From NCBI RefSeq assembly GCF_900116205.1, contig NZ_FOZS01000002.1, positions 1,054,001 through 1,118,000 of the forward strand: DNA of 64,000 nt. The letters are read 5' to 3'. A program made the position numbers and the translations under genes. Source of the DNA: Halostagnicola kamekurae (GTDB lineage Archaea; Halobacteriota; Halobacteria; Halobacteriales; Natrialbaceae). Shown here one piece after another: positions 8,142 to 52,233 of the stretch; the first letter of the stretch is position 1, and each line of letters opens with the position of its first letter. The notes below the pieces were generated by a model. It made no database searches and was not told the origin of the DNA. It worked only from the letters and a program-made list of their open reading frames with translations.

Positions 8142-10787
8142 CTACTGTTCGGTGATACTGATTCCATCCGGCTCGAGTCGGACGCCGACGCCGTTGGGTT
8201 TCGTCTGGAACACCTCCGCGTGGGAGTCGATGTCGTCGACACCGGCTCCCACTTCGAACTCGCCGCTGTCGGGCAAGCACCTGAATTCGCGCTGCTCGCC
8301 GTCGGCCAGAGTGAGGTCCTCGAGGAAGACGACCTCGTCCGAGTTTCGCACTCGGAGTCGAACCGTCGCGTCCCGAGAGAGGCCGTTCTCGACGACGACC
8401 GTGTCACCGCCCCCGATGATCCCCCGTACTGTCTGTTGTGCTCTGGCCACGATAGCCGACGCGCGCGAGTTGAACTCCTCCTGATTGTTTTGGTAGACGA
8501 AAAGTATGCCAACGAGTGCAAGCAGTCCGAGTACGGCTGCGACGAACTGAATCGGCGAGATCCGGTCGAGCAGTCCCTGGCTGGACGATCCCTCGAACGT
8601 GGCGCTGCGTTCGACGGCCGACGAGGCGTTCAACGACTCGTTGTTGGTCGCGATCCCGTAGGTGTACTCGCCGCTCTCTTCGGGCGGTTCGAACTCGGCG
8701 GTGACTGTCTCGGATTCGGACGGCTCGAGCGTGAGTTCCTCTTCGACCATCGTCTCACCGCCGAGTACGAACTGGACGATCTGGGTGTCGGTGAGATCCC
8801 CGACGTTCGTGATGTTTCCGGACATCGATACGTTCGAGGTCGGATTCGACGCACCGGCTAACTCGAGGTCGCTGGCCTCGAACGTCGATCGGTTCGCCGT
8901 CACGTTTTTCGAGACGCGACTCGTGTTCGCGGTGAGTTCGACTCCCGACGACGCGCTGTCTGTTAGCTCGAACGAGAACGTTTCCTCGGTTCGTTCCGAA
9001 GCGTTGAGCAAGAACTCCCGCGTCTGCGTCGCGTCCGAGACGACGTTGTCCGGGTCTGCGACGCTCACGGTGAGATTCTGTAACTCCGGTACCTCTCCCT
9101 CGTTTTCGACACTTACTGTCGCCTCGAAGGGTTCGCTCGAGGAGACCGTCTCGTCGAACTCCTCGAACTCGATATTTATGTCCTGATCGAACTTTACCAC
9201 GTCGTTTCCGCCAGGCGTCTGGATTGAGATGTTCTCGATCGGTACGGTACTCTCGTTGAGTTCTAACGAAAACGTTTCCTCGTACGGTGACTCATCGATA
9301 GTTACATCTCGTTGTTCTGTAACATTGCCGTTGACGAGGAACTCGACTGGAATCTCTATCTCACTATTCAGGAAGTCAGACACCGACGTTTCGTCGCCGT
9401 TGTACTCGAATTCTCCCGTCACCTCGAGTTCTTCGCTGAAATTTCCGATCTCAATGGCATCATCCCTGTCGATATTGACGTTCATGTTCTCTTCGTGAGC
9501 AGCCTGTGAAAGGATGGTTGCCTGGGTCTCCGCTGATTCGTTTATTTCAGGGATTCTAACCGACACATCGAGTTCCGGAACGTCACTGGAACTAGTTTCA
9601 TAGGAAATTTTACCCCCTTGTGTACTGCCGGGATCGATATTGAGGTCATCAGTTTCGACAGTTTCGTTTCCAACGATAAACTCAACGGTCATGTCTTCTA
9701 CCGGAACATCACCTATTCGCTTAAATTCGGCCCCGATTTGTAAGTCATCTCCCACGACCGTGGTCGGAGCCCCGATTGCACTAATGGTGACATCGGCCGC
9801 TTCGATTTCTATGTCCTGACTGTCTTGGCTGTCTCCGAACTCTCTCGAGTTATCGGCATCTAAGCGGATTTTGTCGACCGAGTTATCCCCTTTTTCAGTT
9901 TCGACTTCGAACGATAGCTCTTCTTCTTCGTCAGGGTCGATAACGACGTAATTTTCACTAACGTTACTCCACCCGCCGGAATCTTCATTACGCCACGAGA
10001 GTGTGGGAGTTCCAGTAAAGTACTGGAAGCCATCATTACTAATCGTCGCAGTAACGGTTAGGGTTTCACCCTCGGCAGGATCATTGACGCTGGTTATCTC
10101 AGTCTCGAGAACGGGTTCACCAAAATTCCGGTATGTGATGTTTTCTTCGTTTTGATCGTCAACGATAGGGACTCCCTCCTCTTCCTCCCCTTCTCTGGTC
10201 TGAAGCGTTCCATTATTTGGATTAATCTCGATCTTCGTCGACGAATCTTCTACGACTAAATCCGGGGAGTCACCATCCTTGTATACGACCTTCTTTTCCG
10301 TTCCGTTCACCTTCACAGGCTTACCGTCGTACTGTACAACATCTTGGCCTCTCCAGCCAGAAATTACTAGATTTTCTTCTCCAAAACCAGGAGATTTGTG
10401 CTTCAAGAACGTCGCTTCCGACGTTTCGTTTACCGATTTCCCACTGACGACAAGTCCGTTCTCGAGTTGAACAACTACGACATCGTCTGGATGACTTGAG
10501 GTCGTAGTCGTTCCTGCGAGCGTAACTTCCGTTTCGTTTGATGATCCCAGAACTTCCCGTTCAGTTGACCCGGTCGAGGCGTCGTTAGCGGCAACCGCTG
10601 TACCAGTTCCAATACCACCCCCAAGGACTGCGCCAGTCAGAGTCAGCGTCACGATCAACCCGACGAGGGCGTGTCTCTGACGCTCGGACACACGACACGA
10701 CCGGATCGACCGAGACCAGACGTTCGCGAACATAGTGGTGACTCCGGAGGGACCGGCGGGCGGCTTCGTTGGCGCATTCGCATTCAT
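8142..10787 (-). CDS. large cell-surface protein with Ig/CARDB-like repeats and one C-terminal membrane anchor
   Basis: 881 aa. An unusually long, basic N-region precedes a hydrophobic signal segment (about residues 43-67, ending GTAVAAND); an internal Met at residue 19 is an alternative start. The extracellular body is strongly acidic, rich in Thr/Ser/Asn and N-glycosylation sequons, and contains repeated beta-sandwich modules with phrases such as EGETLTVTATISN and EPFEATVSVENEG, typical of CARDB-like domains. A membrane helix (about 743-765, FVAAVLGLLALVGILFVYQ) is followed by about 110 cytoplasmic residues forming a second beta domain. A TATA-like AAATAAG lies near 10820. The part from roughly 9,480 to 10,560 is visibly AT-richer than the rest, suggesting a mosaic gene. 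Likely surface adhesion or envelope structure; exact role unknown. Confidence 0.75.
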   Translation of the reverse strand: MNANAPTKPPAGPSGVTTMFANVWSRSIRSCRVSERQRHALVGLIVTLTLTGAVLGGGIGTGTAVAANDASTGSTEREVLGSSNETEVTLAGTTTTSSHPDDVVVVQLENGLVVSGKSVNETSEATFLKHKSPGFGEENLVISGWRGQDVVQYDGKPVKVNGTEKKVVYKDGDSPDLVVEDSSTKIEINPNNGTLQTREGEEEEGVPIVDDQNEENITYRNFGEPVLETEITSVNDPAEGETLTVTATISNDGFQYFTGTPTLSWRNEDSGGWSNVSENYVVIDPDEEEELSFEVETEKGDNSVDKIRLDADNSREFGDSQDSQDIEIEAADVTISAIGAPTTVVGDDLQIGAEFKRIGDVPVEDMTVEFIVGNETVETDDLNIDPGSTQGGKISYETSSSDVPELDVSVRIPEINESAETQATILSQAAHEENMNVNIDRDDAIEIGNFSEELEVTGEFEYNGDETSVSDFLNSEIEIPVEFLVNGNVTEQRDVTIDESPYEETFSLELNESTVPIENISIQTPGGNDVVKFDQDINIEFEEFDETVSSSEPFEATVSVENEGEVPELQNLTVSVADPDNVVSDATQTREFLLNASERTEETFSFELTDSASSGVELTANTSRVSKNVTANRSTFEASDLELAGASNPTSNVSMSGNITNVGDLTDTQIVQFVLGGETMVEEELTLEPSESETVTAEFEPPEESGEYTYGIATNNESLNASSAVERSATFEGSSSQGLLDRISPIQFVAAVLGLLALVGILFVYQNNQEEFNSRASAIVARAQQTVRGIIGGGDTVVVENGLSRDATVRLRVRNSDEVVFLEDLTLADGEQREFRCLPDSGEFEVGAGVDDIDSHAEVFQTKPNGVGVRLEPDGISITEQ

Positions 10788-11338: not shown

Positions 11339-12811
11339 ATGTTGACCGGATGGCGCTACCGAATCGTCAGCGCGGCCGGAGTGGTCGGAGTGACCACTCT
11401 CTCCGTGCTCGTGGCGAACCATCCGACGGTCCAAAAGCAATTTACCACCTACGTTCCCCTATTCAATCGCCTGGAAGTAGACACACTCTCCGGCGGGATG
11501 CTCCTGTGGGCTATCGCTCTCTGCTCGGTCGTCATGGTCGGCTGCCTGCTTCCGCTGTACAAACCCCGGCCGCGGCGCGTACTTGATACGGTTTTCCTCG
11601 CACAAAAACGCGTGGTAACTGGTGGACTCGCGATCGCGGCGTTCGGTTTTTTCAAGATGTCCCACCGGCTTCCTCGGGCGACGCTCGTGATGGTGGTCGG
11701 CCTGCTGTCGGTCGCGATACCGGCGTGGTTCGTCCGAATGCGACGCCGTCCGGCGAACGATTCGGGCCGGACGCTCCTCGTCGGCGACGATCCGGATCAG
11801 ATCGAACAGATCTCCGCGCAGCTGGCGGGTCCCGTCTTGGGATATCTCTGTCCGACCAGCGCACTTTCTAGCCAGTTCGTCGCGGAGGGGGACTCGACGG
11901 CCATCGAGGCCGTCCCCGACGGCGGTTCCGTATCCGAGGACGGACTCATCCTCGAGTACGACGAATTTACTGACCTCGACCGACTCGGCGGCCTCTCGAG
12001 GATCGAAGACGTGCTAGTCGAGTACGACGTCGACACCGTCGTGTTGGCGTTTCGACGAGCCGACCGCGCCGAGTTCTTCGGTTCGCTCGACGCCTGTTAT
12101 GAACACGGCGTCGACGTGAAAGTTCACCAAGAGTACACTGACTCGGTGCTGATTTCCGACGACCAGATCGGCGAACTGGTGACCGTCGATCTCGAGCCGT
12201 GGGATCCGATAGACCACCTGTTTAAGCGCGGCTTCGATGTCCTGTTCTCGCTGACTGCGCTCGTCGCGCTCGCGCCGGTGATCGCACTGATCGCCGTCGC
12301 GATCAAACTCGATAGCTCCGGTCCCGTCCTGTACAAACAGGAGCGAACGGCCGTGTTCGGCGAGTCGTTTCAGGTGTACAAGTTCCGGAGCATGGTCCAG
12401 AACGCGGAGTCCGAGACCGGAGCGAAGATCAGCGACGAGGACGCAGGCGGCGTCGATCCGCGCGTCACGCGCGTCGGGAAGATCCTCCGAAAGACCCACC
12501 TCGACGAAATTCCGCAGCTGTGGGCGATTCTCGCCAGCGATATGAGCGTCGTCGGCCCGCGGCCGGAGCGTCCGGAACTCGACAGCGAAATCCAGAGCGA
12601 CGGGGTCGACTGGAGCAAACGGTGGTTCGTCAAACCGGGACTAACCGGACTCGCGCAGGTCAACGACATTACGGGCCACGAAGCCGAGAGCAAACTTCGC
12701 TACGATCTCGAGTACGTCCGCCGCCAGTCGTTCAGGTTCGACCTCAAAATCGTCATCCGCCAGATCTGGAAAGTGTTATCCGATATCAGGGAATTCGTCG
12801 CTAGTAGATGA
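11339..12811 (+). CDS. polyprenyl-phosphate sugar-1-phosphate transferase (exopolysaccharide type)
   Basis: 490 aa. It has several N-terminal membrane helices, a central soluble CoA-binding-like domain, then a membrane hairpin and the bacterial sugar-transferase catalytic domain from about residue 295 ([14 protein letters not shown]). Catalytic landmarks are [36 protein letters not shown] and the strongly conserved [11 protein letters not shown] with [10 protein letters not shown]. It attaches the first sugar phosphate to a lipid carrier, starting an extracellular polysaccharide or lipid-linked glycan. Its stop overlaps the next gene (ATGA), so transferase and epimerase are co-translated. The operator-like palindrome at 11296 suggests regulated expression. 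Confidence 0.92.
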
Positions 12812-13743
12812 GTGACGAGTCGCCGGTGGCGATTTCTGGACAGTGCGTTCTGGTGACGGGCGGGGCGGGATTTATTGGAAGCAATATCGTCGAAGCGCTC
12901 GTGCCCGAAAACGACGTTCGCGTGCTCGATAATCTCTCGAGCGGGGCTCGATCTAACGTCCCCCCGAGCGCGACGTTCATCGAGGGCGATATCAGGGACG
13001 ACGCCACGCTACGGGACGCGACGGAAGGCATCGACATCATTTTTCATCAGGCAGGACAGATAAACGTCGAGCGGTCGTTCGAAACGCCGGAGTTGACCCA
13101 CGAGGTAAACGTCGCCGCGACAGTGAAACTCCTCGAGTGCGCTCGACGCGAGTCCGCGCGGTTCGTGTTCGCCTCGAGTGCGGCGGTCTACGGGCATCCC
13201 GAGTCGATTCCGCTATCGGAATCGGCTCCGACCGAGCCGACGTCGCCGTACGGGGCGTCGAAACTCGCAGCGGAGCAGTACGTGCGGTTGTACGACGACC
13301 TCTACGACCTGCAGGCGGTGTCGTTGCGATACTTCAACGTCTACGGAGCCGGGCAAGTCAGCGGCGATTACAGCGCCGTCATTAGCGTCTTCGTCGACCA
13401 AGCGCTGAACGGCGATCCGATTACGGTAGACGGTGACGGGTCCCAGACGCGGGATTTCGTCCACGTCCGAGACGTGGTGCGAGCGAACCTCCTCGCCGGG
13501 GCCGCAGACGACTGTGACGCCGTGTTCAACGTCGGGTCCGGCGAGAGCCACTCGATTCTGGAGCTGGCAAAAATCGTCCGATCCGTTGCCGGATCGGAGT
13601 CGGAGATCGTCCACCGACGCGAGCGGACGGGCGACATTTCCGACAGCGAGGCTGATCTCGCTGCGATCAGGTCCCAGTTAGGATACGAACCGACGATTTC
13701 GATCGAATCGGGAATGGAGGAACTGATCACAGCATTGGGGTGA
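12808..13743 (+). CDS. NAD-dependent sugar epimerase/dehydratase (UDP-glucose 4-epimerase-like)
   Basis: 311 aa extended SDR. Rossmann motif VTGGAGFIGSN near the N-terminus, catalytic Ser in ASSAAVYG and the YxxxK pair in SPYGASKLAAEQY, then the RYFNVYG and TRDFVHVRD substrate-side motifs usual for GalE/WbpP-type enzymes. It probably makes the nucleotide sugar used by the transferase encoded just before it, with which it overlaps by four bases. The exact substrate cannot be set by eye; 4-epimerisation of UDP-glucose or UDP-GlcNAc is most likely. Confidence 0.9.
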   Translation: MSDESPVAISGQCVLVTGGAGFIGSNIVEALVPENDVRVLDNLSSGARSNVPPSATFIEGDIRDDATLRDATEGIDIIFHQAGQINVERSFETPELTHEVNVAATVKLLECARRESARFVFASSAAVYGHPESIPLSESAPTEPTSPYGASKLAAEQYVRLYDDLYDLQAVSLRYFNVYGAGQVSGDYSAVISVFVDQALNGDPITVDGDGSQTRDFVHVRDVVRANLLAGAADDCDAVFNVGSGESHSILELAKIVRSVAGSESEIVHRRERTGDISDSEADLAAIRSQLGYEPTISIESGMEELITALG

Positions 13744-13906: not shown

Positions 13907-14737
13907 ATGGCTCCCCCGCTCGTCCACTTCCTCGCAGGCGCGACGCTCGCGCTGTTCGTAGCGATGCCGTTCGCGCTCCGCGGTCGGCTTGCGCGGCGAC
14001 ACCTGTGGCTCGTCGTCATCGGCGGCCTCTGGGGAATGGCCCCAGACGGCAACTACGTGACACCCGTCTTCGAATCGCAATTGGCCGCGCTGCACGGCTC
14101 ACAGTGGGCGAACGTCTTCGCCGGCCACCACGCGCTCGACCGGCCCGCGTTCGCGACTCGAGCCCTGACCAGTACCGGCGTCGCCGTCATGGGGTTCGTC
14201 GTCGGCGTCTTCGGGTTTTCCAGCGCCGCGACCGTCGGTGAGCGAGGTCGCCGCGACACTCGCTCGCCGCGAAATCGGTTGCTGACTCGGGCGGTGCTGT
14301 CTGGGTACGCGGCGATCCTCACCGGCGCTCTCGCGGGCGTCTGTTCGGGTCTCGTACTCGCCCACACCGGTCGAATGGAGCCGCTGGCCGCGCTGTGGGG
14401 TCGCGAGAGCGCAACCGCGGGCTGGGTGTTCCTGCTCGCCTGTAGCCTCGGAGCCAGTGGCGTCTTCGCGCTCGTTCTCGAGGTGCTCGATCGCCGATGG
14501 CCGGTTCTGCGCCCAACGTTCGGTGCGGGTATAGGGCTCGCAGGCGCGGTGATCGCCTGGGGAACGGTCGTCGCAGTGGCCGTTCCGATCTGGATGCGCG
14601 TCGCGTTGGATCTCCCGCGTCCGATCCCGTACCTCCACCTAGCGAGCCTGGCCGGACTCGTGGTCTTCGGTCTGGTGGTTGGTCTCGTCTATCCGACCAC
14701 TCGACGCGTGCTCGACTCGTCGGCCCCGCCGCGCTAG
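13907..14737 (+). CDS. multi-pass membrane protein, paralogue of the gene at 22186-22680
   Basis: 276 aa with about seven hydrophobic helices. It begins MAPPLVHFLAGATLALF and has GHHALDRPAFATR between the second and third helices. The C-terminal half (from ILTGALAGVCSGLVLAH, through a GRMEPLAALWG loop, to VVFGLVVGLVYPTTRR) matches the whole of the 164-aa protein at 22186-22680, including the GRM..AALYG loop and the PFLH segment. No known family is recognised. The ATG lies about 100 bases after an AT-rich promoter-like stretch (CTTATATG near 13804), so a longer leader or a different start is possible. Confidence 0.7.
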   Translation: MAPPLVHFLAGATLALFVAMPFALRGRLARRHLWLVVIGGLWGMAPDGNYVTPVFESQLAALHGSQWANVFAGHHALDRPAFATRALTSTGVAVMGFVVGVFGFSSAATVGERGRRDTRSPRNRLLTRAVLSGYAAILTGALAGVCSGLVLAHTGRMEPLAALWGRESATAGWVFLLACSLGASGVFALVLEVLDRRWPVLRPTFGAGIGLAGAVIAWGTVVAVAVPIWMRVALDLPRPIPYLHLASLAGLVVFGLVVGLVYPTTRRVLDSSAPPR

Positions 14738-14839: not shown

Positions 14840-17287
14840 TCAGGACGCGTCGACGGCGTTGCCCTCGAGCACGTCGGCTTCGTCGACGGTGACCGTTTCC
14901 CCGTCAACGGTGTACTCGCCGCTGTAGGGGACCGTCACCTCGAGGGTGCCGTCTCGTGGCTCGACCTCGCGCTCGTAGGTGATCGACTCGCCGTCGATTC
15001 GCTGTTCGGTCGTGACCGTCACCGGGCCGTCGGCGTCGGTGGTCGTTTCGATAGTGGCACCTGGGACGACCGCGAAGGCGCTCACGTCGTCGCTCGTCGC
15101 GAGGAGCCGGTAGTGTGAGAGTCCGTCGCCGTCCTCGCCGCCGGTACCGAGTTCGTCGTGGAGTTGCGACTGGGTCGCGTTCTCCGGCACCGAGGCCTCG
15201 GTATCGCCGACGACGACGTACCCCACGTCGTCGCTTCGGAACTCCTCGTACCAGCTATCCGGATCGTCGGCCGTCTGGAACTCGTCGTAGTGGGCGTTCG
15301 CGTACGCGAAGCTGTCGGCCTCCCCGTTGACGAGGTAGTTGTACATCCGGTTGTCCGGCCACTCGCTCAGGACGAAATTCTGGGGATACTCCCGATCGAT
15401 CGATTCGGCGTGGTCGTCGATCGCCGTTGCGGCCTCGTACTGACCATCGGTGTGAGCGGTCTGGGCGACCAGCGAGGGGACGAAGATGAGGCTCATACCG
15501 CAGACGATCAATGCGATGATGGTCAGATACGCGACCGTCGAGGCGTCCGTCGGACGAACGATGTTCGGGTCTGACTCGCCGCCGTCGGTATCCGCCCTGC
15601 GAGCCCTGCCCGCGGTGGACGGGCCGGCTCGAGTCGACTCGCTGTCCGTACGGAACGGTACGGGGACGCGTGCCAGATCGACCCAGGCCGTCAGGTGGAC
15701 GAGTCCAAGCCCTCCGAGTATCGAGAGCGGGATCGCCAGCTGTGCGGCGAAACGAACCTGAATCGCGGCCATAGCGACCCAGAAGACGACGTAGACGCTT
15801 AGCAACAACCAGGCGGGCTCGTAGCGTCTGTAGGCCACCCAGCAGGTCCACAGGAGGACGACGAGCGCGACGTAGAACTGGATGCCGAGCTGGGACATCG
15901 GGCCGTGGATCACGGCGAGGTCCGCCGAGAACAACGACGCGGATTCGGTGAGCCCCTCGCGGAGGAAGAGGTCGTCCGCGCGTTCAGTCAGGCGCGCCCA
16001 GTCCGCCGGGCGCAGCTGTCGAAAGAGGAAGATCCCCGCCACAGCGCACACCACCTCGAGACCGACCAGACCCGTCGTCGGCCACTCGAGGCGCACCCAT
16101 CCCTCGGCGAGCGCTGCGATAACGATGGTGGCGACGACGGTGAGGACGGGAACGATGGCGACGAACGAGTTCTGCCAGTCCCACTGAAAGTGAAAGAAGG
16201 CGGTAAGCCCGCTGGCGACGAGCAGGCCGGCGACGATCGGTGCGGCGGCCAGAGCGGGGGAGACGCCGTCTCGAGCGTCCATCGCGACTTTCAGACCGAT
16301 GTAGCCCGCCGCGGGGACGAACATGAGGATCGAACCGCCCCAGGCGAGCGCGGAGAAGCTGAGCCCGACCCCGAGTGCGACGGCCGCGACCCAGGTCCAG
16401 GGCGTTCGAAGGTGCGCGGAAAGCGCTTCCGAGAGCGGTCGATCCGAGTCCGAGTTCGGCTGCTGTAATCGTCGACGGCGGACATCGACGGCGAGCCAGG
16501 CGAACGCGACCAGCGTCACACCGAGCCAGAGGTACTGGTGGAGGAGGTGCTCGAGGAAGCCGACACCGGAGTAGACCGCGTGAACGGGCGTCAGCGCGAG
16601 CAGAACGATCGCGGCGATGCCGACGCGAACGTCGTCGGTGACGATCACGGCGAGCCAGTAGACGAGCACGCCGAGCAGCAGCGTCGCGACGACGGGGAGC
16701 CAGGCGGCAACCGCGTCTGGACCGACGAACTCCGCGAGAAACCAGTTCGTCGCGTGCGTGAGCGGGCGTTTGAGTGCAGCGTCGCCCGGCATGTCCGCGA
16801 GGAGACCGATATCAGTCGGTCCGTTCGATTCGGCGAGAAACCGGTCCATCCAGTAACGAAAGTAGTACGGGTCGTTTCCCGGCGAGAGGATCGTCCCATC
16901 GCGGAACACCGCCGGAGCGTTCAAGAGCCGCATCGCGACGAGAAAGACCAGCGAGGCGAGGACGGCACCTACGGTTGGGCGCTCGAGCGAGACCGGGAGT
17001 TCGAACTCGAAACCGTCGTCTGCGTTCGACGACGACGCGACGGACTCGCCCGTCAGACCCGCCCGGATTCCCTCCCGGCTCGCAACGCGGTACTCGCCGT
17101 CGACTTTCGTCACGAGATCGCGAGAGACGAGTTCGCCGAAGGTGCCCGAATCGACGGGGAGATCGTCGAACGTCCACGTCTCGTGGGCGTCGTCGACCTC
17201 GAGTAGCGTCTCGAGGGTCGCTTTCCCGTCGGCTCGCTCCTCGCGAAAGCGTGCCGCCCGTCGTGCGACCTCAGCAGGATCGGCCAT
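14840..17287 (-). CDS. STT3/AglB-like membrane protein with altered catalytic motif
   Basis: 815 aa. An N-terminal soluble region of about 95 residues (ending in a winged-helix-like segment SRDLVTKVDGEYRVAS) precedes roughly 13 membrane helices and a C-terminal globular domain. STT3 features are GNDPYYFRYWMDRF (residues 137-150, the first acidic motif) and GFLEHLLHQYLW (about 243, second acidic motif). At about 640, where oligosaccharyltransferases carry WWDYG, this protein has EWPDN followed by RMYNYLVNGEADSFAYA. It may therefore act on a different acceptor, or be inactive as an N-glycosyltransferase. It faces the glycan genes convergently from the other side of a membrane-protein gene, and diverges from a DUF4330 gene. 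Confidence 0.78.
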   Translation of the reverse strand: MADPAEVARRAARFREERADGKATLETLLEVDDAHETWTFDDLPVDSGTFGELVSRDLVTKVDGEYRVASREGIRAGLTGESVASSSNADDGFEFELPVSLERPTVGAVLASLVFLVAMRLLNAPAVFRDGTILSPGNDPYYFRYWMDRFLAESNGPTDIGLLADMPGDAALKRPLTHATNWFLAEFVGPDAVAAWLPVVATLLLGVLVYWLAVIVTDDVRVGIAAIVLLALTPVHAVYSGVGFLEHLLHQYLWLGVTLVAFAWLAVDVRRRRLQQPNSDSDRPLSEALSAHLRTPWTWVAAVALGVGLSFSALAWGGSILMFVPAAGYIGLKVAMDARDGVSPALAAAPIVAGLLVASGLTAFFHFQWDWQNSFVAIVPVLTVVATIVIAALAEGWVRLEWPTTGLVGLEVVCAVAGIFLFRQLRPADWARLTERADDLFLREGLTESASLFSADLAVIHGPMSQLGIQFYVALVVLLWTCWVAYRRYEPAWLLLSVYVVFWVAMAAIQVRFAAQLAIPLSILGGLGLVHLTAWVDLARVPVPFRTDSESTRAGPSTAGRARRADTDGGESDPNIVRPTDASTVAYLTIIALIVCGMSLIFVPSLVAQTAHTDGQYEAATAIDDHAESIDREYPQNFVLSEWPDNRMYNYLVNGEADSFAYANAHYDEFQTADDPDSWYEEFRSDDVGYVVVGDTEASVPENATQSQLHDELGTGGEDGDGLSHYRLLATSDDVSAFAVVPGATIETTTDADGPVTVTTEQRIDGESITYEREVEPRDGTLEVTVPYSGEYTVDGETVTVDEADVLEGNAVDAS

Positions 17288-17539
17288 TATCGCGTACGTC
17301 CGAGTGTGGCCTGATTATCCTTTCGCTCTGTTTGACTGTTTGAGAAGGGTGTGCCCCTGGTTCTCGGATTCGATGGCGAGTCTGGCGGCGGACTTGTAAA
17401 CTAAGCCTTGGTCCCCGTTCCTCGTTTCCGCACCTGGTCTCCGTTCCCGTCTTTGGAAGCCAGCAACATCGTGTATCAGGACAAAACACCTATAGTACTG
17501 CAAGAGACGTACCACGAATATGAACTCCCCGGGGAAACT

Positions 17540-18664
17540 ATGGAATTAATCGACGAAAACGGAAACCTCTTCGGCGTCGTGAACGTCATCGACGCGCTCG
17601 CTATCGCCCTCGCGCTCGCGGTCGTCGTCGCCGGAATCGCAGTCGTCGGCGTGCTCGGTATCGGAGGCGGACCCGCTGGGAACGGCGACGACGGAGCGTC
17701 CTCGACCGAGACCAAGTACGCAACACTCTCGCTCGGCACGCTGTCGATCGATACCGCCGAGTCCATCACCGCTGGCGACGAGATGACGGCCGACGACGAG
17801 CGGCTCACGATCACTGACGTGTACGCGACGCCGACCTCGAGCGACACCGCCGACGTCACCGTCCGCGCCGAAGTCGCGGCCACCCAACGCGAGGACGGAA
17901 CGGTCGCGTTCAACGGTGATCAGTTCGCACCCGGCCGGAACGTCTCGATCCAGACCGACGAGTACGACGTGAGCGGCAGTGTCGACGTCGTCGAATCCAG
18001 TACGACGACGCTCTCTACCACCGAAACGGAGGCACTGTTCGAGGATACCGTCGACCAGGAGACCGCCGAACAGATACGTGCCGGAGACGAGTCCGCAGTC
18101 GGCAACGAAACGGTTGGGACGCTCGAGTCGACCTCGGTATATCCGATCGGCGACGATCGATATCGCGTCACCGCCGGGGCGACGCTCACGACGCTCGAGA
18201 CCGAGGACGACGTTCGATACGGACAGCAACCGATCGAATCCGGCGCGACGATTCCGTTCGCGACCGACTCCTACACCATCGAGCCGACGATCCTCGAGAC
18301 TGGCACGACTGACGAACCGGGTGAAGCCACGACGACCACAGTCGAGATCGATCTGGACGAACTTTCAGACCGTGAAGCCGACCTGTTCGAACCCGGACTA
18401 ACCGAGACGACTGGCGGGGAAACCCGGGCAACGATCACGGGCGTTGACCGCGAGCCCGCCACCGTCGTCGTCAAGGCCGAGGACGGGTCGCTCAACGAAC
18501 AGGCCCACCCCACGAAAGACGACGTGACGCTCACCGTCGAACTCGAGACTCGCGAGACGGATCTCGGAACGGAGTTTAAGAGCGAGACATTGCGTACCGG
18601 CGATACTATCTACCTCGACTTCGGCGTCACGACCGTCGAAGAGCGCGCCTGGATCGTCGACTGA
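17540..18664 (+). CDS. DUF4330-family membrane-anchored protein
   Basis: 374 aa from the ATG at 17540; the frame is open further upstream but that part is not protein-like. It opens MELIDENGNLFGVVNVIDA, the hallmark of DUF4330, followed by one membrane helix (about residues 18-40), a glycine/asparagine linker and a long acidic beta-rich extracytoplasmic region made of two or more similar modules (compare TLSIDTAESITAGDEM with QETAEQIRAGDESAV). TATA-like CCTATAGT lies at about 17491. It shares a 252-bp divergent promoter region with the STT3-like gene, hinting at a joint envelope role. Function of the family is unknown. Confidence 0.8.
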   Translation: MELIDENGNLFGVVNVIDALAIALALAVVVAGIAVVGVLGIGGGPAGNGDDGASSTETKYATLSLGTLSIDTAESITAGDEMTADDERLTITDVYATPTSSDTADVTVRAEVAATQREDGTVAFNGDQFAPGRNVSIQTDEYDVSGSVDVVESSTTTLSTTETEALFEDTVDQETAEQIRAGDESAVGNETVGTLESTSVYPIGDDRYRVTAGATLTTLETEDDVRYGQQPIESGATIPFATDSYTIEPTILETGTTDEPGEATTTTVEIDLDELSDREADLFEPGLTETTGGETRATITGVDREPATVVVKAEDGSLNEQAHPTKDDVTLTVELETRETDLGTEFKSETLRTGDTIYLDFGVTTVEERAWIVD

Positions 18665-51978: not shown

Positions 51979-52101
51979 CCGTCCGGACGTATCGCTTGTT
52001 TCTCGGCAATTTTCGGCGGGTAGGAGTGCGTTCACTCGAGAACACCCTCGAGAGAGAAATCGGGACGTTTTAACCGCCCCGGAGCGAACGCCTGCGTGTG
52101 T

Positions 52102-52184
52102 GCGAGGGTAGCCAAGCGGTCAACGGCGACGGACTCAAGATCCGTTCGTGTAGACGTTCGTGGGTTCAATTCCCTCCCCTCGCA
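52102..52184 (+). tRNA. tRNA-Leu (anticodon CAA)
   Basis: A complete cloverleaf: acceptor GCGAGGG/CCCTCGC, D-arm with the AGCCAAGCGGTCAACGGC region, anticodon stem ACGGA/TCCGT with loop CTCAAGA (anticodon CAA at 52136-52138), a long class II variable arm, T-arm around GGGTTCAATTCCC, and discriminator A at 52184. There is no intron. TATA-like GTTTTAAC lies about 30 bases upstream. CCA is not encoded. Confidence 0.95.
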
Positions 52185-52233
52185 TCACAGCACGGCGCTT
52201 TCGCTCACACGCGATAGCGACCGGCCACGATGC

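Follow-up and report, generated by a model that had tools for sequence, protein, structure and literature searches.

A haloarchaeal STT3-like protein family without the acceptor motif of AglB: a candidate second oligosaccharyltransferase

The window, by which we mean the whole 64,000-nucleotide stretch of Halostagnicola kamekurae DNA analysed here, carries a gene for an STT3-like protein whose open reading frame has exactly the limits given in Table 1. A DUF4330 gene diverges from it, and on its other side lie a gene without a recognised family and, beyond that, genes for a sugar epimerase and a WcaJ-type initiating transferase. An earlier note on this DNA had placed the STT3-like gene beside the last two; both are indeed near, but neither is its immediate neighbour, as the gene without a recognised family intervenes. 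Near the initiating transferase there is also a gene for an 881-aa protein (8142-10787, minus strand) which by eye looks like a secreted protein, anchored in the membrane at its C-terminus and rich in N-X-S/T sites, and which gave no significant family match. The sole tRNA gene found in the window is a tRNA-Leu (CAA) at 52101-52186.

Table 1. Features of the STT3-like locus in window coordinates, with residue numbers of the STT3-like protein.
Feature	Position	Strand	Basis
STT3-like oligosaccharyltransferase paralogue (P0001), 815 aa	14840..17287	-	ORF, fold, TIGR04154 122.6 bits
N-terminal cytoplasmic-side domain, residues 1-95: helices, beta hairpin, helix; tentatively winged-helix-like	17003..17287	-	conservation, profile matches
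Asp139 of GNDPYY, equivalent to AfAglB Asp47 (first DXD)	16871..16873	-	HMM alignment; 135/135 relatives
Glu246-His247-Leu248, equivalent to AfAglB Asp161-His162-His163 (second DXD)	16544..16552	-	HMM alignment; counts in relatives
Glu448, equivalent to AfAglB Glu360 of TIXE	15944..15946	-	HMM alignment; 133/135 relatives
Arg512, equivalent to AfAglB Arg426, near lipid phosphate	15752..15754	-	HMM alignment; 135/135 relatives; role from a passage of PMC8342417
Ser641-Asn650, S-EWPDN-RMYN in place of S-WWDYG	15338..15367 (EWPDN 15350-15364)	-	multiple alignment
AglB_L1-like peripheral domain, residues 743-792	14912..15061	-	PF18079 21.6 bits, cut-off 23.6
WcaJ-type polyprenyl-phosphate sugar-1-phosphate transferase	11339..12811	+	PF02397 204.8 bits; such genes at 65/133 loci
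NAD-dependent sugar epimerase/dehydratase (GalE-like)	12808..13743	+	such genes at 56/133 loci
276-aa protein without Pfam or NCBIfam match	13907..14737	+	recurrent neighbour, 17/133 loci
DUF4330 protein, divergent from the STT3-like gene	17408..18664	+	recurrent neighbour, 26/133 loci

The AlphaFold2 model of the protein, computed with 68 relatives as input, has a mean pLDDT of 87.8, and its top Foldseek match is Archaeoglobus fulgidus AglB (AfAglB; 7e9s) at E 2.3e-20. VIA-align superposes the two with a Z score of 33.1 over 636 residues (rmsd 4.2), which establishes the fold of STT3, AglB and PglB, 13 transmembrane segments followed by a C-terminal domain, and bears out the topology proposed in the earlier note. 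The NCBIfam model TIGR04154 (archaeo_STT3), by which we recognise AglB, matches the protein at E 1.8e-35 but, at 122.6 bits, far below its cut-off of 450, and the Pfam scan returned AglB_L1 near the C-terminus only, just under its cut-off. A single-sequence search of the PDB gave chance matches only, a profile being needed for alignment to AfAglB. The same genome also encodes an ordinary AglB of 1000 aa, which contains SWWDYG and scores 806.6 bits with TIGR04154. The window protein is a member of the STT3 fold family and, by the motifs that define AglB, is not AglB.

Residues 1-95 form a soluble domain that the earlier note had regarded as an addition to the STT3 architecture. This domain is real: it is conserved across the relatives, and 62 of 73 have an ATG exactly at the start column of the query. 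Searched against 1,946 proteins, a profile of the domain picks up the N-terminal parts of four from Halobacterium (E 1.3e-12 to 5.7e-11), unrelated sequences beginning at 0.17. A scan of one of these four showed it to be EMC3/TMCO1-like (PF01956, 154 bits), and the other three look alike by eye. A domain common to an oligosaccharyltransferase-like enzyme and an insertase suggests, from sequence likeness, a possible link with the insertion or export of proteins. The loci of these Halobacterium EMC3-like proteins that share an N-terminus with the STT3-like family are L216, L217, L219 and L220, and an adenylate kinase-like open reading frame was noticed by eye near the gene in L216 and L219. Stand-alone open reading frames matching the domain also occur (L053:17068-17385, 106 aa, E 1.8e-9; L089:6988-7266, 93 aa, E 2.5e-13). 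Foldseek found no match for the domain at E 0.001, and its best VIA match, to ORC winged-helix domains over 74 residues, has a Z score of 7.0, a level the tool itself calls common, so that our description of it as winged-helix-like is tentative.

Catalytic residues were mapped by HMM profile alignment to AfAglB and their conservation counted in 135 relatives, leaving out one with a broken reading frame (L105); another with three stops (L087) gave no open reading frame. The AfAglB equivalents bind the metal directly or via water, or sit near the lipid phosphate, according to passages of PMC8342417. Asp139, His247 and Arg512 do not vary at all, and 133 of the 135 have Glu448; since the window protein reads GLTE, it is the Glu alone, rather than the whole TIXE motif, that is retained. 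The claim that both acidic motifs are kept therefore stands for the first, an intact GND-P, and only in part for the second, which reads E-H-L against the D-H-H of AfAglB. Position 246 is Asp in 85 relatives, Glu in 49 and His in one, while position 248 is His in 57, Arg in 49, Gln in 26, Asn in two and Leu in one, the window protein. The 57 members with DHH, among them that of Halobacterium salinarum, have the same metal triad as AfAglB, GND/DHH, whose ligands are given in part of PMC8342417. Loss of His248 is a single change on the tree, defining a group of 78 of the 135 rows that includes the window protein and in which His250 is conserved in 66 of 78 and Gln251 in all 78. One part of the family thus has the whole catalytic set, while the part to which the window protein belongs has a changed one.

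This alteration bears on the suggestion in the earlier note of a regulatory paralogue. An inactive, regulatory or scaffolding protein would account for the loss of the third metal ligand in the 78 rows and for the extra N-terminal domain, yet it sits badly with three invariant catalytic residues, with Glu448 in 133 relatives, with the full DHH set in 57 and with the linkage to donor-making genes described below. Since constrained catalytic residues and linked donor genes fit an enzyme rather than a regulator, the suggestion is not supported, although the metal-ligand loss in the window's clade keeps a small probability for it.

In the textbook view, N-glycosylation needs the sequon N-X-S/T, which is read by WWDYG. 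Passages of PMC3703281 and PMC8342417 describe WWDYG and the DK motif as together forming the Ser/Thr(+2) pocket, and the former gives a variant DK motif rule, E<>KXXX(M/I/P); applying the KXXX(M/I/P) part, we read the DK lysine of the H. kamekurae AglB as KFDPI. At the WWDYG position the AglB of the same genome reads VMSWWDYGHLI and the window protein VLSEWPDNRMY, so that EWPDN occupies residues 642-646, lying in the model between a strand (638-640) and a helix (643-654). The profile-profile alignment to the genome's own AglB spans residues 127-526 only, short of the WWDYG region, and the PDB profile match to AfAglB also skips that region; the equivalence of EWPDN and WWDYG, as the earlier note had proposed it, accordingly comes from the multiple alignment and from the place of EWPDN in the model, where a helix follows a strand. 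No WWD or WWE was found anywhere in 133 family proteins (L105 included), which also disposes of a true WWDYG elsewhere in the chain.

Across the family the motif at this position is x-W-G-x-N followed by R-x-Y-N, with Trp643 in 132 of 135 relatives, Gly644 in 106, Asn646 in 124, Arg647 in 134 and Asn650 in all 135. EWPDN itself is exact in three relatives and EWPDS occurs in one more, these four rows forming one group that belongs to the window's genus, and Pro644 arose three times on the family tree. The phylogenetic check proposed in the earlier note therefore went against EWPDN as the key feature: it is a local, genus-level variant of a widespread motif, and we dropped it as a defining trait.

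A tryptophan at 642 occurs in 0 of 135 relatives, so that the WW pair is wholly missing, Asp occurs at 644 in eight, and the segment aligned with the DK lysine is absent in 132. Judging by these alignments, the family has lost the two elements that make up the Ser/Thr(+2) pocket. The reading as an ordinary N-oligosaccharyltransferase, still dependent on N-X-S/T and recognising it through a diverged pocket, could point to Trp643 and to an Asp or Glu often found near it at 645; the missing Trp642, the scarcity of Asp644 and the absent DK lysine segment argue against it, and we hold it to be highly doubtful. The proposal of a different acceptor gains indirect support: the relatives hardly vary in the catalytic Asp, Glu and Arg, yet they lack WWD and the DK lysine and share another conserved motif instead. 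Of the readings weighed here, the likeliest for the window protein is a second oligosaccharyltransferase whose acceptor is not the sequon.

When 125 genomes of the same family-level group were searched at tblastn level, 68 proved to have relatives. At E 1e-50, a profile built from 68 of these relatives picked out 155 of the 293 genomes of the order, spread over 54 of 87 genera. In a sample of the phylum 44 of 392 genomes matched at E 1e-30, every one of the matches listed lying inside the order; as two candidates per genome were scored, this pattern falls short of proof that the family is absent elsewhere. Named relatives include proteins of Halostagnicola sp. A56 and of Natrinema and Natrialba species; where NCBI gives a label, it is 'STT3 domain-containing protein', 'hypothetical protein' or, in two records, an unrelated LamG name. 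The alignments comprised 68 of 73 proteins (A1) and 90 rows (A2, the window protein and 89 of 131). The FastTree tree came with a warning of long branches, AglB joining another long row, and we do not trust its rooting. The evolution of AglB is said to have been treated by Nikolayev et al. in 2020. Two intact, diverged family copies occur in each of G021 (L042 and L043, 26 kb apart), G107, G109 and G069, and second copies that look broken were seen in G081 (L087, three in-frame stops) and G080 (L105, a frame break).

The oligosaccharyltransferase of the Haloferax volcanii Agl15 pathway was considered as a role for the family and is not supported: 0 of 15 genomes of the genus taken for Haloferax matched at E 1e-30, so the family does not explain the AglB-independent N-glycan of Haloferax. 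That genus was chosen with an H. volcanii DHFR query, which matched seven genomes at 90-93% and none at 100%; a different genus (g47) was dropped as Haloferax after the DHFR search gave nothing there. Searches of the open-licence PMC literature, together with passages of the papers cited here and of PMC8241124, PMC13308652, PMC11980604, PMC9943897 and PMC10384203, yielded no description of the STT3-like family.

The gene neighbourhood was compared at 133 loci, most of them 17-20 kb and some truncated, with L105 kept among them. A WcaJ-type initiating transferase (PHPT) occurs at 65, within 3 kb at 50, and is missing from 68. Other recurrent clusters, each named from one sample protein, are a nucleotidyltransferase (59 loci; AglF/GlmU-like, the sample scoring as AglF), an epimerase (56), a GT4-type protein (44), a UDP-sugar dehydrogenase and the DUF4330 protein (26 each), GlmS and a Wzx-type flippase (21 each), PAP2 (19) and UppP/BacA (18). 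At least one of six donor gene clusters (PHPT, nucleotidyltransferase, epimerase, UDP-sugar dehydrogenase, GlmS and UppP) is present at 110 of the 133 loci and none at 23, counts that are not independent because the loci are related by descent. A protein of about 200 aa without a Pfam match (cluster c12, sample L060:5951-6553; 22 of 133 loci) recurs with the DUF4330 protein, and UDP-sulfoquinovose synthase-like genes (cluster c27 and L167:11027-12202; NF041015 339 bits, below cut-off) occur at 10 of 133.

WcaJ-type initiating transferases make polyprenyl-pyrophosphate sugars, and UppP removes a phosphate from polyprenyl pyrophosphate. With both as neighbours, a dolichyl-pyrophosphate (Dol-PP) donor is suggested, unlike the Dol-P donors used by the haloarchaeal AglB proteins studied so far, according to part of PMC8674786. 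The gene neighbours thus suggest that the family's donor is a Dol-PP-linked glycan. The same neighbours, with the Wzx-type flippase and the GT4-type protein among them, would also suit a surface-polysaccharide transferase or polymerase passing Dol-PP repeat units to a growing chain, a lipid or another non-protein anchor: the name of the WcaJ-type transferases refers to exopolysaccharide synthesis (TIGR03025), and the peptide-reading pocket is lost. However, the TIXE Glu, part of a motif that in AfAglB pairs with the peptide backbone (in a passage of PMC8342417), persists in 133 of 135 relatives, and many DHH members read I-A-E like AfAglB. The closest folds are moreover those of oligosaccharyltransferases, although fold does not show function. 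We consider such a polysaccharide enzyme unlikely, if still to be taken seriously.

When the family is set beside AglB (A. fulgidus AglB-L and the haloarchaeal TIGR04154 proteins), the two share the fold, GND, the His of the second motif, the TIXE Glu, the phosphate Arg and, weakly, AglB_L1, whereas the family lacks WWDYG and the DK lysine segment, has an extra N-terminal domain and keeps other gene neighbours. Eukaryotic STT3 (8pn9, VIA Z 29.2) and bacterial PglB (3rce, Z 22.5) also share the fold, but the window family is without the pocket motif; PglB uses pyrophosphate-linked donors. DPY19 C-mannosyltransferase (7zlg, Z 22.8) shares the GT-C fold by structural comparison and is an STT3-fold enzyme with a non-sequon acceptor; it differs in its Dol-P-mannose donor.

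The family is present in four of 13 Halobacterium genomes (G182, G209, G255 and G262). We take G182 to be H. salinarum, as it alone of the 13 has a bacteriorhodopsin match of 100% over 247 residues. Its member of the family is a protein of 773 aa with YVFSRWSRNRLYNW, to which the window protein is 30% identical; it has the full GND/GDHH/IVE set, and its gene adjoins glmS. PF02397 has one match each in G182, G255 and G262, at 5.2, 5.2 and 4.0 kb from the STT3-like gene respectively, and none in the other 10 genomes, among them G209, whose family member belongs to another branch. In G255 (L207) the gene order is STT3-like, GlmS, two GlmU-like and the PHPT initiating transferase.

Sections of PMC2952790 and PMC4335974 credit H. 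salinarum with one oligosaccharyltransferase gene and a single aglB, respectively. The repeat-unit glycan at Asn-2 of its S-layer protein is described, in passages of PMC2952790 and PMC8674786, as Dol-PP-borne, GalNAc-linked and bacitracin-sensitive, and the former states that replacing Ser-4 by Val, Leu or Asn does not prevent its formation. According to that review, this sequon-independent glycosylation had received no suitable explanation, and part of PMC6591318 calls the handling of a Dol-PP glycan by AglB unclear. The Asn-2 enzyme, known by its activity, would match the family in its Dol-PP donor and its freedom from Ser at +2, a link that we put forward as a proposal from the account in PMC2952790. 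Four things would make the H. salinarum member fit: it has no Ser/Thr pocket, a Dol-PP-type initiator lies nearby, so do HexNAc-making genes, and it occurs in the right species.

It is plausible that the WcaJ-type transferase places a sugar-1-phosphate, often of a HexNAc, on dolichyl phosphate, and that the glycan would then be built on this carrier, as repeats in some species, and flipped. Outside the cell, the STT3-like enzyme would take the glycan off dolichyl pyrophosphate and attach it to protein, the carrier then being recycled by a UppP-like phosphatase. In this model W-G-x-N-R-x-Y-N may form a different acceptor site and, with WWD and the DK lysine gone, Ser/Thr at +2 would not be needed, which makes the H. 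salinarum member a candidate transferase of the Dol-PP-linked repeat-unit glycan at Asn-2. An O-oligosaccharyltransferase using the same donor on Ser/Thr hydroxyls would also have no use for the Asn-sequon reader, and the S-layer of H. salinarum bears O-linked disaccharides as well (in a section of PMC2952790). The equivalents of Asp47 and Glu360, which act on the Asn amide in AfAglB, are however both kept, and the haloarchaeal O-glycans known from the source passages are disaccharides, apparently not Dol-PP-borne chains; we find this alternative distinctly improbable.

The best explanation for the fold, the kept Asp, Glu and Arg, the lost pocket, the gene linkage and the presence in H. salinarum, all of them observed, is in our view a second haloarchaeal oligosaccharyltransferase, distinct from AglB, that may use Dol-PP-linked, HexNAc-started glycans without reading Ser/Thr and is a candidate for Asn-2, a possibility to which we give a little less than even weight. 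From these observations we infer the activity, donor and acceptor of the window protein, and the likeness of its working to that of the H. salinarum member. The fuller proposal, a haloarchaea-wide N-oligosaccharyltransferase that transfers Dol-PP repeat-unit glycans to Asn without a sequon, is tied to insertion or export by its EMC3-type domain and is the Asn-2 enzyme, is more speculative and on balance somewhat unlikely. If true, it would mean an oligosaccharyltransferase that is not bound to the sequon, and haloarchaeal glycosylation would split into a Dol-P/AglB branch and a Dol-PP branch served by a second oligosaccharyltransferase. The family would thereby provide an enzyme candidate for an old, mutation-proven exception to the rules of N-glycosylation, one that may now be tested by a single-gene deletion.
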